In this document: one piece after another, positions 1,260 to 55,050 of the stretch
Layout: every line of letters starts with the position of its first letter
Numbering within the stretch: position 1 is the stretch's first letter
Origin: Cristatella mucedo
Lineage: Eukaryota; Bryozoa; Phylactolaemata; Cristatellidae
Assembly (NCBI GenBank): GCA_009760855.2
Contig: WPIO01000001.1
Coordinates: 21,542,501-21,606,500, forward strand
Direction: 5' to 3'
Length of the DNA: 64,000 nt
The notes under the pieces: generated by a model
What the model was told of the DNA's origin: nothing
The model's input: only the letters and a program-made list of their open reading frames with translations
Database searches by the model: none
Position numbers and translations under genes: made by a program

Positions 1260-18388
<17,129 letters not shown>

Positions 18389-33598: not shown

Positions 33599-35167
33599 CT
33601 AGCTTTGAAGGATGAAAATCGGCAGCTCATCCAGTTGAGCGCTGCAGTTGAACCACTGGCTTCCGACCAGTGTCTGCTTCGTGAGCTGCGACTGCCAGCG
33701 ACCGGCGGGCAGGTAGACTCGCCGGCTTCGCGCACCTTGCTGCACCACCGGCGCCACGAGCACGTCGTCGCCGAGAAGGAACTCGTCGTCCACCACCTGA
33801 GCGGTCGCGTCGTTCGGCGCTATCCACCAGAGCGGCCGCACGACGGGCTCGCCGGTGAGCACGGCGTTGTGGGACAAGTTGACCAACCGATCTGCGTACT
33901 CGTCCCTGACCCGCAGGTACTTCTGGGTTATGTTCGTGACCTCCTCGTCATAGCTCCACGGCGCGAGCGAGAACTGCATGCTGGGCAGCAGCACGTTTGC
34001 CTGCAGCCACCTCACATACAGCTCTCTGTCCGGCGAGACGCCCTCGTAGGCGTTTCCGCCGATCATGTCGGGCAGAACGAACGGGTATCCCAATAGGCCG
34101 AAGGTCAGCGCCGACGGGATCAAGGTTCGGAGACCGTTGTCGTAGCCCCACGTGGAAATCTTGTCCATCATTCTCACGAAAATCGGCAGCCTCTGCGAGC
34201 GCCAGCCGACTCTCACCTCCTGCCGCCTTTGGTGGCGATCGGCTTCGAACGCCATGTCTGCGTAGGCCGTGGTGTAGGCAGCCGGACTGAGCCACGGCAC
34301 GGAGCCCTGGCTGGCGTCCGGCAGCCAGTTGGTTTCACCCGCGTCGAACTTGAATGAATCTACGCCGTACAGACCGGTAAGGTTGGACAGTTTCGACAGG
34401 AACCACTCCACTGCCTTGGGATTCGTCACATCCAGCACGCCTCCGACACCGCGCCACCACAGCGCCACGGCCGCCGAGTCCGAGGAAGCCCGCTTCAATA
34501 GGAAGCCGAGCGCCTTTCCTTCGGCGAAAGCATTCGACAGAATATTGGCGAACGGGTGCACCCACAGCGTCACTTTGATTCCGAAGCCGTGCAACGTTTG
34601 AACGAGGGCCTTGGGATCAGGGAACTTTGCTCGATTGAACACCATGTCGCCGTACGCGGGCGTCCAGTCGTCGTCGATTTCTAGCTGCGATATCGACAAG
34701 TTGTAGCTCCTGATCTTGTCAGCATACGACAGCGCACCGTCCTGACTTATGTTTTCCTTGAACATGGCCCACGTGGACCAAATGGGATGGCGAATAACTT
34801 GTTCGCTCGGAATGTCAATCGGCTTCTCCCAGAGAGCGGAGGCCACTTTCTTGTGCAGATCTGCGAAGCTGGACGTCGGCGGAGACGCTTGACACACGCT
34901 GTAGGTGAGTGCAAGATTAGTTTTGTTCAAATTTCTATAAGGGGAATCGTCAAACCGAGACATGAGACACAGCTTGCCATCGGATGAGGAATTTATGCTT
35001 ACGAACAGCGGGATACTGTCTGACTGTATGAACACGGCCACGCCAGCACTGGAGAGCCAGTATCGTTCCAGCACCCCGCCGTATTGATTGGGTTGAAAAG
35101 AATCTCCCGGAACGTAAGGTTTCATGTCCATGTTCCACGTTTCAATGGGCCACGTCTGGGTATGAAC
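33599..35167 (-). CDS. MYORG-like GH31 catalytic exon (terminal)
   Basis: The acceptor (minus strand) is TTTTCTATTGCAG before GTT CAT ACC; the frame stays open further upstream, but that part lacks family similarity and is intronic. The exon encodes 522 residues and ends in TAG at 33601-33599. It carries the substrate-domain strings [15 protein letters not shown], the catalytic Asp pair and the C-terminal beta domain ([26 protein letters not shown]). All catalytic motifs look intact, so it is probably functional. Positions 34541-34788 were copied into a LINE at 35905-36152. Confidence 0.94.
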   Translation of the reverse strand, partial: VHTQTWPIETWNMDMKPYVPGDSFQPNQYGGVLERYWLSSAGVAVFIQSDSIPLFVSINSSSDGKLCLMSRFDDSPYRNLNKTNLALTYSVCQASPPTSSFADLHKKVASALWEKPIDIPSEQVIRHPIWSTWAMFKENISQDGALSYADKIRSYNLSISQLEIDDDWTPAYGDMVFNRAKFPDPKALVQTLHGFGIKVTLWVHPFANILSNAFAEGKALGFLLKRASSDSAAVALWWRGVGGVLDVTNPKAVEWFLSKLSNLTGLYGVDSFKFDAGETNWLPDASQGSVPWLSPAAYTTAYADMAFEADRHQRRQEVRVGWRSQRLPIFVRMMDKISTWGYDNGLRTLIPSALTFGLLGYPFVLPDMIGGNAYEGVSPDRELYVRWLQANVLLPSMQFSLAPWSYDEEVTNITQKYLRVRDEYADRLVNLSHNAVLTGEPVVRPLWWIAPNDATAQVVDDEFLLGDDVLVAPVVQQGARSRRVYLPAGRWQSQLTKQTLVGSQWFNCSAQLDELPIFILQS

Positions 35168-38100
35168 CTGCAATAGAAAACGATTGGTGCTAGCAGCAAG
35201 GGGCACAGAGAGAAGGTTCGGAGCTAAATCACCCAGCCGCATGTTTGGCTGAAGTGGGGGACTCGCTACAAGAATCTCTCGGGCAATCAAACCCCTTTCG
35301 CCGAAAATATCCCGCTTAGCATCCCCCCTCTCGGCTCTCTTTGCCAGAAGAAGGGCTACCAAGCTTCCGCGAAGAGGCTGCAAGGCTTACAGGGCGCTTT
35401 GCCCGAGGCTTTTCGCGAAGCAGATTCGAGGGTGGTTTTCCTCAAGAGGAGATCTATCTGCCATTGCTTCTTGGACGCAGTTATATATAAAAAAGGTTAA
35501 TAATAATAATAATGCACTTGATAAAGCGCCCTCAGAGAACTCAATCTCTCTCTAGGCGCTTTACATTTGCAGCGAAGGGAAATGCAATTGAATGGTGATT
35601 AATATCATGCTTGATAAACAAACAAAATGGATAACATGGTTAGGGGTGACATGCACTGGGTCAGCATGCCAATGTGGTTAGTGGCAGCATGCACAGTGTC
35701 AGCACGCATAAGCACATGAAGGACGAATCACAGGGACCCACGAAATGCTGTCCTAAATAGGTGTGTTTTTAAGTTCTTTTTAAATGTGGTCAGGTCAGGG
35801 GATGTTCTGACGCAAGTCGGGAGGGAGTTCCAGGCTTTGAGAGCATACGAACTAAATGCACGGTCTCCAAAGGATTTAAGGTTTGTACGAGGTATTTGTA
35901 GACTAATATTGGCGAACGGGTGCACCCACAGCGTCACTTTGATTCCGAAGCCGTGCAACGTTTGAACGAGGGCCTTGGGATCAGGGAACTTCGCTCGATT
36001 GAACGCCATGTCGCCGTACGCGGGCGTCCAGTCGTCGTCGATTTCTAGCTGCGATATCGACAAGTTGAAGCTCCTGATCTTGTCAGCATACGACAGCGCA
36101 CCGTCCTGACTTATGTTTTCCTTGAACATGGCCCACGTGGACCAAATGGGATTCCGAAAAACGGGTGGTACGATGCTTGGCCTGGTGGGGGAGTATATCT
36201 GAGAAATAGGCTGGAGCCAAAGAAAGAAGTGACCTAAAAGTGAGCGACAAAACCTTGAAGTCAATCCGTTGCTTGACTGGTAGCCAGTGCAGGTCGGCGT
36301 GAAGTGGTGTAATGTGGCAACTGCGACGCTCACGACAGACAAGCCTAGCTGCGGAGTTTTTCACCAGCTGAAATCGCCTGATAGCACATGCTGGTAGGCC
36401 AGTAAGCAGCGAGTTGCAGAAGTCGAGACGGGATGTCACGAATGCATGGACCAACTTGGACGTGGTATCTTTATCTAAACAAGCCCGAATTTTAGCAATG
36501 TTATGAAGCTGAAAATAGGCAGATTTAACTGTGGAGCTGATATGGTCGTCTAACGAGAGGTCGCTTTGGAATATGACACCTAGATTTCGAGCTGATTCAA
36601 CAGGAGATATGCTGGCAGAACCCATTTTGAGCGTCAGCCTTTCTAATTTGTGAATCACACTGGGTTTGCTCATAACTATTAAGTTAGTTTTATCATCGTT
36701 TAGTTTTAGAAAACTTGCTGCCATCCATGTGCGGATGTCATGAATACATGCAGCAAGTGAGTTGAGAGAATTCGAGGTGCCCAGAGGCTGTGAGGGATCA
36801 AACCAAAGGTACAACTGAGTGTCATCCGCATAGAAGTGAAAGCCTAGATTGTGCTTGGCAATCACATCAGCAAGAGGCAGAGTAGAAACCGTGAAAAGAA
36901 CCGGACCTAGCACGGAGCCCTGAGGTACCCCATTTATTTCAGAGGTACCTCAGATGATCTTTGTCCATTCACGTCAATACTCTAGAGTCTCCCACTGAGA
37001 TAGGACCTGAACCACTGCAGAGCAGTGCCAGTGATGCCCAGGCGAGATGAGAGGCGCTCTAGAAGAACTTTGTGATCGATGGTATCAATAGCTGCCGAAA
37101 GATCGAGCAAAACCAGCAGAGACACTCTACCCATGTCTGCATTCCTAAGTAGGTCGTTGTATACCCGAAGCAATGCTGACTCTGTGGAGTGATTAGCTCT
37201 AAAGCCAGACTGAAACTTACTAGCAAGGTGTGAGGTTTCGATTTATGAGTACAGCTGGTCCGCCACGACCCGTTCCAGTGTCTTCGATAGGAACGGTAGA
37301 AGGGAAACTGGATGCTCATCGTGATTTCAAAAGCCGCCGCTCGGGGCGCCCCTGCCCACGCAGTTTTTTTTAGTAGAGGAGCACACTTTTGGAGTTTCCA
37401 GATGGGTGATCGTTTTTAGACAGGCCCGCAGAGGCGGGCCGCCGCCGAGCGGCGCCGAGCGGCGGCGGCCCGCTGTCGCTTCAGGCTCTTTGTGCTGCGG
37501 ATGTGCGAGTTGTCTGTCCAGCGTGTTGAAAGAGGCGTGGGCGGGTGGCGCGCTCATACGGAGCATCCGTCGGGCTTTCTCGAACAAATTTATGTTTTAA
37601 GTTATCAGGCGATGCAATTTAATTCATCTCAGTCTGTCTCTGTATAAAGCCATCGGGACTTTTGCGGGCGTTCGGCAGGAGAGTTTCTATAGCGAACTCT
37701 CAGCGTAGGCGGCTTTCGGTTCAGACACTTTAGCCAACAGATTCCATCTCGCGCAACAAAGAGAAAATAAGAAGCATAGTCAGGAGAGCAGGAGAGGAAG
37801 TGAGTAATACGGAAGTAGCGGCTCATGACAGTGGAAATCATGTGCCTCAGTCTCTTCGTTTCTTCTCTTCTTCAATCTTAGTCTCGCAGGATAGAAGATG
37901 GCGTTGCGTAAGAAATTTGGAAGAGAGTTCCCGATTCTATGACCTGCAGAGCTAAAGATTTAATCTCCTTGAGAATGGAACAGATAATCGAAGGAATGTA
38001 GCAGCTGATTTATTTTCTGCAGAGGATCTGAGGGCACGATGTGGCTGAAACTGGCGCATGAGTTCAGATAGTTATGAAGAAACCAAGCTATTGTGAGCCT

Positions 38101-52551: not shown

Positions 52552-52927
52552 TACATATCTATGGGCGACTCTGAGCTACTTGCTCAAGTTTTCATATACA
52601 ACTTCAGAAATAATTAACATAAATATAAATAAAATAAATAATTATTTATACACATATTTAGTTTAAAGCCCCTGGGACGGCGTAGCGTTTACACATTTAG
52701 TTTAAGGCAAGCCCTCCGGACGGCGTAGCGATTAACTGCGGCCACGTTACAGGCTGCCATTTTCTGCTTACTCGTGGTGAGGTGTTGGTGGTGCGGAGGT
52801 AGTGGCTCCGCATGTATCGTGCGCATGTGGCCGTTTAACCGGTTTTGGTGATTTCCGTGTCAGCTGGAGTCCTCCCGAATGCTGCAGATGTGCTTGTATT
52901 CTTTTACTGTGCCCTGATTAGCAGTCG

Positions 52928-53095
52928 ATGGCGTTCTTTATGAATGCGCTAGCCAGCGATGGAGCTGTGGTATCGCCCCACTTCAGAATGGACGCCAAGA
53001 TCTTTGACCACATCTTTGACTATAGCGAGCAGCTGTCGGAGTGTCCAATACGTGAGGGTATATTGTCGTATAAAGGCCCTGATGTTAAAGTCTAG
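52928..53095 (+). CDS. Small ORF (55 codons) in exon 1 of the snoRNA host gene
   Basis: Starts ATG GCG TTC TTT and reads MAFFMNALASDGAVVSPHFR, then MDAKIFDHIFDYSEQLSECP, ending VKV and TAG three bases before the intron 1 donor (GTAAGT at 53099). Composition looks protein-like and it is wholly contained in one exon. No family recognised. It could be a real micropeptide or an upstream-type ORF that shapes decay of the spliced host RNA. Confidence 0.4.
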   Translation: MAFFMNALASDGAVVSPHFRMDAKIFDHIFDYSEQLSECPIREGILSYKGPDVKV

Positions 53096-53133
53096 CACGT
53101 AAGTTTATACTACATACTTTTAAGTCGCTGATT

Positions 53134-53192
53134 TAGTGTGATGATTACCACCGCCCCAGGCTGATGTTTGTGACGATTGGCGTTCTGACTTG
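53134..53192 (+). ncRNA. SNORD31-like: C/D-box snoRNA, SNORD31/U31-like, copy A1 (intron 1)
   Basis: C box GTGATGA 53138-53144, D' CTGA 53161-53164, C'-like GTGACGA 53170-53176, D box CTGA 53185-53188. The guide ACCACCGCCCCAGG precedes D'. Its core CCGCCCCAG is complementary to the LSU rRNA string CTGGGGCGG, as in human U31; the base next to D' is G where U31 has T. Confidence 0.83.
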
Positions 53193-53326
53193 CTAGCTTG
53201 CTGTTTTGAGTTCAACTTGGTGATATTCAGGCAATTCAATAAGGTAATATATATTTCAGATGGTGAAAAAAACACCCGAGCATACTTAGTAAGTAAACTG
53301 ATTTTTTGTTTGTGTACTATTTGCCT

Positions 53327-53390
53327 TCATAATGATGAATAATCACCGCCCCAGTCTGAACATGCTGACTGACTGGTAGTTCTGATACGC
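53327..53390 (+). ncRNA. SNORD31-like: C/D-box snoRNA, SNORD31/U31-like, copy A2 (intron 2)
   Basis: C box ATGATGA 53332-53338, D' CTGA 53356-53359, C' TGACTGA 53366-53372, D CTGA 53382-53385. The guide CACCGCCCCAGT next to D' is identical in its core to human U31 as I recall it, and C' TGACTGA also matches. By the D'+5 rule it would direct 2'-O-methylation of the second G in ACUGGGGCGG of large-subunit rRNA. Confidence 0.9.
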
Positions 53391-53546
53391 TTATTAATCG
53401 CCATGAAGTTAAAAATTAATTTTTCGATTATTAATGAAAATATGTTCTTGCAGGTGGTCGGTTCCAAGGCATGCAAATAATTCAGCATCGTTAATGGATT
53501 AAAAGGTATTATTGCATGCGTCTACTGCTGCATTAATCAGTTTGAC

Positions 53547-53618
53547 CGAATATGATGACTACTATTTTGCACAATTCTCAGAACAACACATGTTGTCGGT
53601 TTGACGATGCTGACCGCT
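53547..53618 (+). ncRNA. C/D-box snoRNA, second type, copy B1 (intron 3)
   Basis: C box ATGATGA 53552-53558, D'-like CAGA 53579-53582, D CTGA 53610-53613, with GTTTGACGATG just before the D box. Nearly the same as B2 in the segments TGATGACTACTA, TTTGCACAATTCTC and GGTTTGACGATGCTGACC. The two possible guides (TATTTTGCACAATTCT before D', TCGGTTTGACGATG before D) could not be matched to a target. Confidence 0.78.
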
Positions 53619-53801
53619 GCGGTGTAGCTGCCGTTAATAGCTGTTTTGTTTTGTTTAAGTCGTGCTTATAAGCTGCGCTTGTTTTTTGTAGATGTTCTTA
53701 ATAGGAGCCCCTCGTCAGAATCAACTTATTGCATGTTTTGTGATGTTGTAAAAGCGATACTAACATGTAAGTAAACTGTTTTCTTACATTTCTATGTGTT
53801 T

Positions 53802-53865
53802 GTAAAATGATGAGTAATCGCCGCCCCAGTCTGAATTTTCTGACTGATTGGTAGTTCTGACCCAA
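53802..53865 (+). ncRNA. SNORD31-like: C/D-box snoRNA, SNORD31/U31-like, copy A3 (intron 4)
   Basis: C box ATGATGA 53807-53813, guide CGCCGCCCCAGT, D' CTGA 53831-53834, C' TGACTGA 53841-53847, D CTGA 53857-53860. Very close to A2 throughout, including GGTAGTTCTGA. Confidence 0.9.
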
Positions 53866-54023
53866 AAAAATACCTGTTCGATATCGGTGTTTTCTTCTTT
53901 TTATTGTTAATGAATGTGGCGTTTTGTAGTCTGGCTGGTGCAGAAGACATGATAGTTCATCAAGGGCCGCCGAGTTGAGGATTATCATGGTAATTTTGCT
54001 TACACAACGTCGATTACTTAATC

Positions 54024-54100
54024 TGGCAGTATGTGATGACTACTACTTTGCACAATTCTCTGAACAAATATGTTGTTGGTTTGACGATGCTGACCACTGC
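54024..54100 (+). ncRNA. C/D-box snoRNA, second type, copy B2 (intron 5)
   Basis: C box GTGATGA 54033-54039, D' CTGA 54060-54063, D CTGA 54090-54093. A terminal stem can form between GCAGT (54026-54030) and ACTGC (54095-54099). Same type as B1, with a canonical D' where B1 has CAGA. Confidence 0.82.
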
Positions 54101-54236
54101 AATACTGCTGCTAGTTGTATTGCAGTAAAGTAAATGTATCTAAAGCTGAGAATTAATTTTTTCAGGTAGGCATTTATCAACAACCAAGCCAGCTACCGAT
54201 TAGCATTCGTGACAATTCTTATTGGTTTCATTTGCT

Positions 54237-54242
54237 AATAAA
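54237..54242 (+). terminator. Polyadenylation signal of snoRNA host gene
   Basis: AATAAA about 71 bases into the last exon, followed by T-rich sequence. Confidence 0.65.
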
Positions 54243-54299
54243 TTTGTCTTACACTTATTTCTTAGCGATCGTGTGGCCCTGAAAGCATGCTTTGCTGTA

Positions 54300-55050
54300 G
54301 CACACTTAATGTGCTTGTACTCATGAGTCTAGCTGCTCGATCTCTGCATGTTGCCATTTATGACAAATGACCATCTTGATAGCCTGGCCTATTCATCTCT
54401 GGAAATTACCCTTACCTCTAAGCGATTGCTAATAACTACATTTAATTGCACTAAACCACAGCAAAGAAAATGCATTTTGCTGTGCATTGAGCAAAGGAAG
54501 TCATGCGCAATTGTAGTTTTCAGCGTGTTTTGAGAGGCAGTGGATTTGTCGGCAGACTGCCTAGTCGGCTAAAGTCATATTGTGAAACCCAAATTTCACA
54601 GTACAGGAATTTGTTTGTCAAACATAGTGCCGTTTGAATGGATAAGCTATCTACATCGGAGCTCAGATTTGGATTTACACTGCCTGGCGTTTACTAAACG
54701 GAATCCTGTGCAGCCTTCGAGGTGATATCGGCTAGGTCCCAATGAAAAAAGCTCTGCTAGGGGTACTCGGCTGTTCTGGTACACAACTAACCAGTTGGGA
54801 AATACTGATTCAAAGTGCTGCTCGGCTCGTCAGCAAGCTAGAATTGATAAATGTACGTCATTAACTACCAATTTGCACGGATCTTGTAGTTCCGGTCTTA
54901 GTCTCACCGATTGAGCAAAAGCAGCGTTTGCGGCCAAGATCATACACGATCATGATCGGTAAAGTGCTTGCAAGCAATCAGCTAGGGGTCACTAGGTAAG
55001 GCGGTAATTTTTTGCAACTGAGGCCGTGGGTGTAATGTAACGGAAATTCT
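54300..55050. other. Intergenic, nothing recognised
   Basis: No gene-like frame or repeat family identified here. Confidence 0.5.

Follow-up and report, generated by a model that had tools for sequence, protein, structure and literature searches.

The + strand at about 52.8-54.26 kb of the window (the whole stretch of 64,000 nucleotides of Cristatella mucedo DNA that was analysed) very probably carries a UHG/GAS5-like snoRNA host gene that encodes no protein, with three copies of U31 (SNORD31), two copies of a second C/D snoRNA, here called type B, and a duplication of a cassette that holds one of each. A host of the UHG/GAS5 type had been predicted, and the prediction is supported by the Rfam matches, a 12-base pairing with LSU rRNA, an open reading frame (ORF) of chance length, and exons that have drifted whereas the snoRNAs are kept. 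Judged by its sequence, the gene is a real and well-preserved snoRNA host. The predicted features, all on the + strand, are as follows.

52760-53098 (+), exon 1 of the host, followed by the donor GTAAGT at 53099; the 5' end is arbitrary as drawn
53099-53259 (+), intron 1, GTAAGT...TTTCAG
53138-53188 (+), putative U31-1 (SNORD31), box C to box D; Rfam RF00089 at 53132-53194, 38.6 bits, E 1.1e-6 for a permissive search of the stretch 52700-54400, below the gathering score of 40
53260-53288 (+), exon 2 (29 nt), from splice sites
53289-53453 (+), intron 2, GTAAGT...TTGCAG
53332-53385 (+), putative U31-2 (SNORD31); Rfam RF00089 at 53325-53389, 51.4 bits, E 8.8e-9
53454-53505 (+), exon 3 (52 nt), from splice sites
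53506-53691 (+), intron 3, GTATTA...TTGTAG
53552-53613 (+), putative type B snoRNA, copy 1; C and D boxes, no Rfam match at the gathering score
53692-53766 (+), exon 4 (75 nt), from splice sites
53767-53929 (+), intron 4, GTAAGT...TTGTAG
53807-53860 (+), putative U31-3 (SNORD31); Rfam RF00089 at 53799-53866, 55.0 bits, E 8.5e-10
53930-53989 (+), exon 5 (60 nt), from splice sites
53990-54165 (+), intron 5, GTAATT...TTTCAG
54033-54093 (+), putative type B snoRNA, copy 2; C and D boxes, no Rfam match at the gathering score
54166-54262 (+), last exon (exon 6), with the polyadenylation signal AATAAA at 54237; the 3' end is inferred

Five GT-AG introns of 161-186 nt follow one another over 53099-54165, separated by internal exons of 29, 52, 75 and 60 nt. 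As the original prediction had stated, each of these short introns (5/5) holds one C/D unit. Box C (TGATGA) is located at 53139, 53333, 53553, 53808 and 54034, 40-47 nt inside the respective intron, and box D ends at 53188, 53385, 53613, 53860 and 54093. The distances from the end of box D to the end of the intron are 71, 68, 78, 69 and 72 nt for introns 1-5, in agreement with the predicted range of 68-78 nt. In hosts of the UHG/GAS5 type, a distance of about 70-80 nt separates the snoRNA from the 3' splice site. The arrangement of one snoRNA per intron at about this spacing is found in all five introns, and the near-constant distance to the acceptor fits the splicing-coupled assembly of C/D snoRNPs in animals. 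In this reading, the host transcript would undergo splicing, and every one of its five introns would be trimmed to a single C/D snoRNA. A point against it is that neither the folding energies (z from -1.22 to 0.73) nor the stems next to the boxes stand out from shuffles.

Being short, C/D boxes might have arisen by chance in unrelated introns; the pattern [AG]TGATGA-N40-75-CTGA has eight matches on both strands of the window together, three of them on the - strand. However, the five matches on the + strand are exactly the five units described above, one per intron and at a nearly fixed distance from the acceptor, and the Rfam E values of U31-3 and U31-2 hold for the whole window. We give a chance origin practically no credence.

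The assignment of three units to U31 is supported by both Rfam and the guide sequence. At gathering scores, Rfam yields two matches over the whole window, and both are SNORD31. Two of the three units thereby exceed the cut-off, and U31-1 lies just under it. The pattern RTGATGA-N3-10-CCGCCCCAG-N-CTGA occurs three times on the + strand of the window and never on the - strand. U31-1 is more distant from the others, having 37/51 aligned bases in common with U31-2 and 42/51 with U31-3. A search of the genome (572,011,866 bases in 688 contigs; 61 of 70,286 first-look candidates scored) revealed no SNORD31 beyond these three.

A U31 has a D' guide complementary to the ACUGGGGCGG site of LSU rRNA. The genome contains a degenerate LSU copy, L007, which Rfam identifies as LSU rRNA, and GACTGGGGCGGT in this copy pairs with 12 bases of the U31-2 guide; the pairing consists of the 11 bases upstream of box D' and the first base of D'. 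In human 28S rRNA, the expected ACUGGGGCGG site scores best for U31-1 and U31-3. Shuffled guides reach the score in 21/200 (U31-1) and 23/200 (U31-3) cases, which is not beyond chance when taken alone, so this pairing is consistent with the family and is no independent proof of it. According to the family identity and the pairing, the U31 D' guide may direct 2'-O-methylation at the conserved 28S ACUGGGGCGG site. For the guides preceding box D of the three U31 units, no target beyond chance was found among the human RNAs scanned (94, 152 and 181 of 200 shuffles).

The rDNA of the animal itself was searched for in the genome assembly. An LSU query matched two places, L007 and L006, and Rfam assigns nothing to the latter. 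The 5.8S family was found at five places, of which L008-L011 are eukaryote-like and L012 is bacterial by eye. An 18S pattern matched six places and gave no match in a scan of viral contigs; the regions fetched at four of the six share 18S-like pieces (some 140-290 bases). Six short rRNA probes were found neither in L007 nor in the four regions around the eukaryote 5.8S pieces, and other rRNA probes were absent from the four fetched 18S regions. No complete rDNA unit was present within the stretches fetched. Only fragments were found; the target scans for type B covered human RNAs and the copy L007, and a target elsewhere in the animal's own rDNA is possible. The rDNA pieces (18S, 5.8S and LSU; L007-L011 and L028-L031) are located on several contigs and are mutually diverged. 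A place (L016) on contig C3 (1,507,939 bases) shows a bacterial rRNA stretch together with bacterial ORFs (SdhC-, Mrp- and TrmE-like by eye). Contig C3 has the look of a near-complete genome of a bacterial symbiont, perhaps, by its likeness, a member of the Rickettsiales.

Introns 3 and 5 carry the units that had been predicted as two unassigned C/D snoRNAs. In the scan of the whole window, no Rfam family attains its gathering score at either unit. They are not of two kinds: 56/61 aligned bases are identical with one gap column, and by sequence they represent a single snoRNA present twice. A DNA search of the genome located type B twice, both times at this locus. In a permissive Rfam search, only copy 2 gave matches (SNORD79, 20 bits; SNORD96, 19.7 bits; SNORD11B, 19.2 bits; snoR16, 19.1 bits), and these are far under the cut-off with E values from 1.8 to 7.7. 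Candidate guide sequences of type B are GGUUUGACGAUG and UUUGCACAAUUCU. The D and D' guides of both copies were scanned against human 18S, 5.8S, parts of 28S, U2, U4, U5 and U6, and no site in this set beats shuffled guides (the best site was reached by 51 of 200 shuffles for the D guide of copy 1, 113 for the D guide of copy 2, 161 for the D' guide of copy 1 and 154 for the D' guide of copy 2). Against L007, a scan without shuffle control gave weak pairings only.

These features could also mean that type B, and possibly U31-1 with its score under the Rfam cut-off, is represented by decayed or non-functional copies and not by active guides. The presumed D' box is CTGA in copy 2 and CAGA at the same place in copy 1. 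The stems beside the boxes are no better than those of shuffled sequences (the observed values are reached by 78 to 758 of 1000 shuffles). However, TGATGA and the last CTGA are intact in both type B copies, and the two copies have kept their sequence to the extent given above, against 47-52% over all columns for the flanks of their introns and chance similarity for the exons. We regard decay as unlikely, and type B is taken as one further C/D snoRNA that would be present in two copies. More speculatively, and in our view improbably, type B might be a lineage-specific orphan C/D snoRNA with both copies under selection and with a target outside the conserved rRNA and spliceosomal sites.

The host RNA itself could be one concrete candidate partner. 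Residues 53482-53494 of exon 3 could form 13 base pairs, one of them G-U, with the D guide and box D of type B, at 53601-53613 in copy 1 and 54081-54093 in copy 2. This pairing is reached by 2 and 4 of 300 shuffles, in a comparison that was made post hoc. Within a snoRNP, box D is held by proteins. As five guide strings were tried and box D itself is included in the pairing, chance is the likelier explanation. If true, the pairing could couple the snoRNA level to the processing of the host RNA.

Introns 2-3 and introns 4-5 are repeated at a spacing of 475-481 bases. This spacing indicates that a cassette of U31 and B was duplicated in tandem. A two-intron unit with a period of about 478 bp would have given rise to introns 2-5. 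The two cassettes were compared as identity over all columns, with 20 shuffles for each comparison. The snoRNA bodies are 89-92% identical between the cassettes, with 89% (48/54) for U31-2 and U31-3 and 90% for the type B bodies. The intron flanks show 46-65%, and every one of them is above its own highest shuffle (42-51%). The exons, in contrast, are at chance similarity: exons 3 and 5 show 36% (shuffles: mean 30%, highest 45%), exons 4 and 6 show 17% (mean 29%, highest 39%), and exons 2 and 4 show 19% (mean 17%, highest 24%). As the bodies are kept and the exons are at chance, selection appears to act on the intronic RNAs and not on the exons, a reading that refers to two cassettes of one genome and to exons other than exon 1, which has no duplicate to compare. 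After the duplication, the snoRNAs alone would have been kept by selection, with the exons drifting freely. One cassette duplication thus serves as a within-gene control for the evolution of snoRNA hosts. RNAs that are about 90% identical next to exons with no detectable similarity are what is predicted if introns, not exons, are the product.

The coding potential of the spliced exons is consistent with this reading. The longest ORF has 55 codons and lies in exon 1 (52928-53095); it is equalled in 159/500 shuffles. In exons 2-6, the ORF is at most 33 codons and has not reached a stop where the last exon, as drawn, ends. Chance ORF length and duplicated exons at chance similarity together describe exons without coding constraint, with exon 1 covered by the ORF length. 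The predicted short, frame-less exons are found in exons 2-5 (29-75 nt) and in the ORF length; exon 1 as drawn is not short. A protein-coding host would have a short protein encoded in exon 1, with the snoRNA introns located behind the stop codon, and the 55-codon ORF is in fact initiated by ATG and ends directly ahead of the first donor. However, besides its chance length, it is closed by a stop codon before intron 1, and the 55-aa product shows no Pfam match at E 0.1. A protein-coding host is therefore considered very improbable, and the non-protein-coding host is preferred.

The gene shares several features with mammalian UHG/SNHG1 (the U22 host gene): multiple exons, no evident coding potential, and intronic C/D snoRNAs that include U31. 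Unlike UHG/SNHG1, it holds three U31 copies and a second snoRNA without Rfam family. An ortholog of SNHG1/UHG would carry U22 and U25-U31; in the window, only SNORD31 reaches the cut-off. Rfam has models for the other members of the set, among them SNORD29, whose model was run against the genome. That search (62 of 144,972 candidates scored) gave 0 matches and detected no control, and has no bearing on absence. The results support a host that is UHG/GAS5-like in kind, and orthology to SNHG1 is not claimed. UHG hosts U22 and U25-U31 and lacks evident coding potential; once spliced, its RNA undergoes rapid degradation (PMC7277114). In common with GAS5 and the chicken gas5-like host, the present gene has exons under 100 nt and an array of intronic snoRNAs (PMC2653536). 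The snoRNA set is different, and exon 1 is longer here as drawn. For chicken and other vertebrates, the same paper proposes that intragenic duplication has been a major driver of the growth in snoRNA numbers (PMC2653536).

An invertebrate host with repeated U31 copies had been thought possibly undescribed. U31 copies occur in Drosophila Uhg1. Uhg1 has 16 snoRNAs, and five positions are targeted exclusively by Uhg1 (PMC4430873). The two figures would fit repeated guides. For Drosophila mfl (in part under the earlier name dUhg6), snoRNA copies are described from introns of a single gene (PMC1821038). On this basis, insect hosts with repeated guides were known before, and the claim was too strong as to the kind of gene. 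A preprint regards the snoRNA clusters of Uhg1-Uhg8 as well characterised (PMC13228274). The present gene has in common with Uhg1-Uhg8 that it is a non-coding host of several snoRNAs, and is unlike them in having five snoRNAs of two kinds only. As for this gene itself, no description was found in the open literature among the matches listed. The gene extends the known animal hosts by one in which U31 is repeated and one guide matches no known family.

Other features were observed in the window. A GH31 gene is located at 33599-35383 on the - strand; its closest resemblance is to myogenesis-regulating glycosidase (PDB 7qqf, E 2.2e-133). The ORF at 35728-36342 (-) repeats a stretch of the GH31 gene and is fused, by eye, to an apparent reverse transcriptase end. 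This end is that of the neighbouring ORF 36083-36913, where RVT_1 is below the cut-off. The ORF at 35728-36342 looks like a partial duplicate or a piece carried by a retroelement. A WD40 repeat (PF00400, 36.2 bits) is located at 11490-11795 on the + strand, and its ORF and the neighbouring ORFs at 1.3-16 kb resemble a Groucho/TLE gene by eye.
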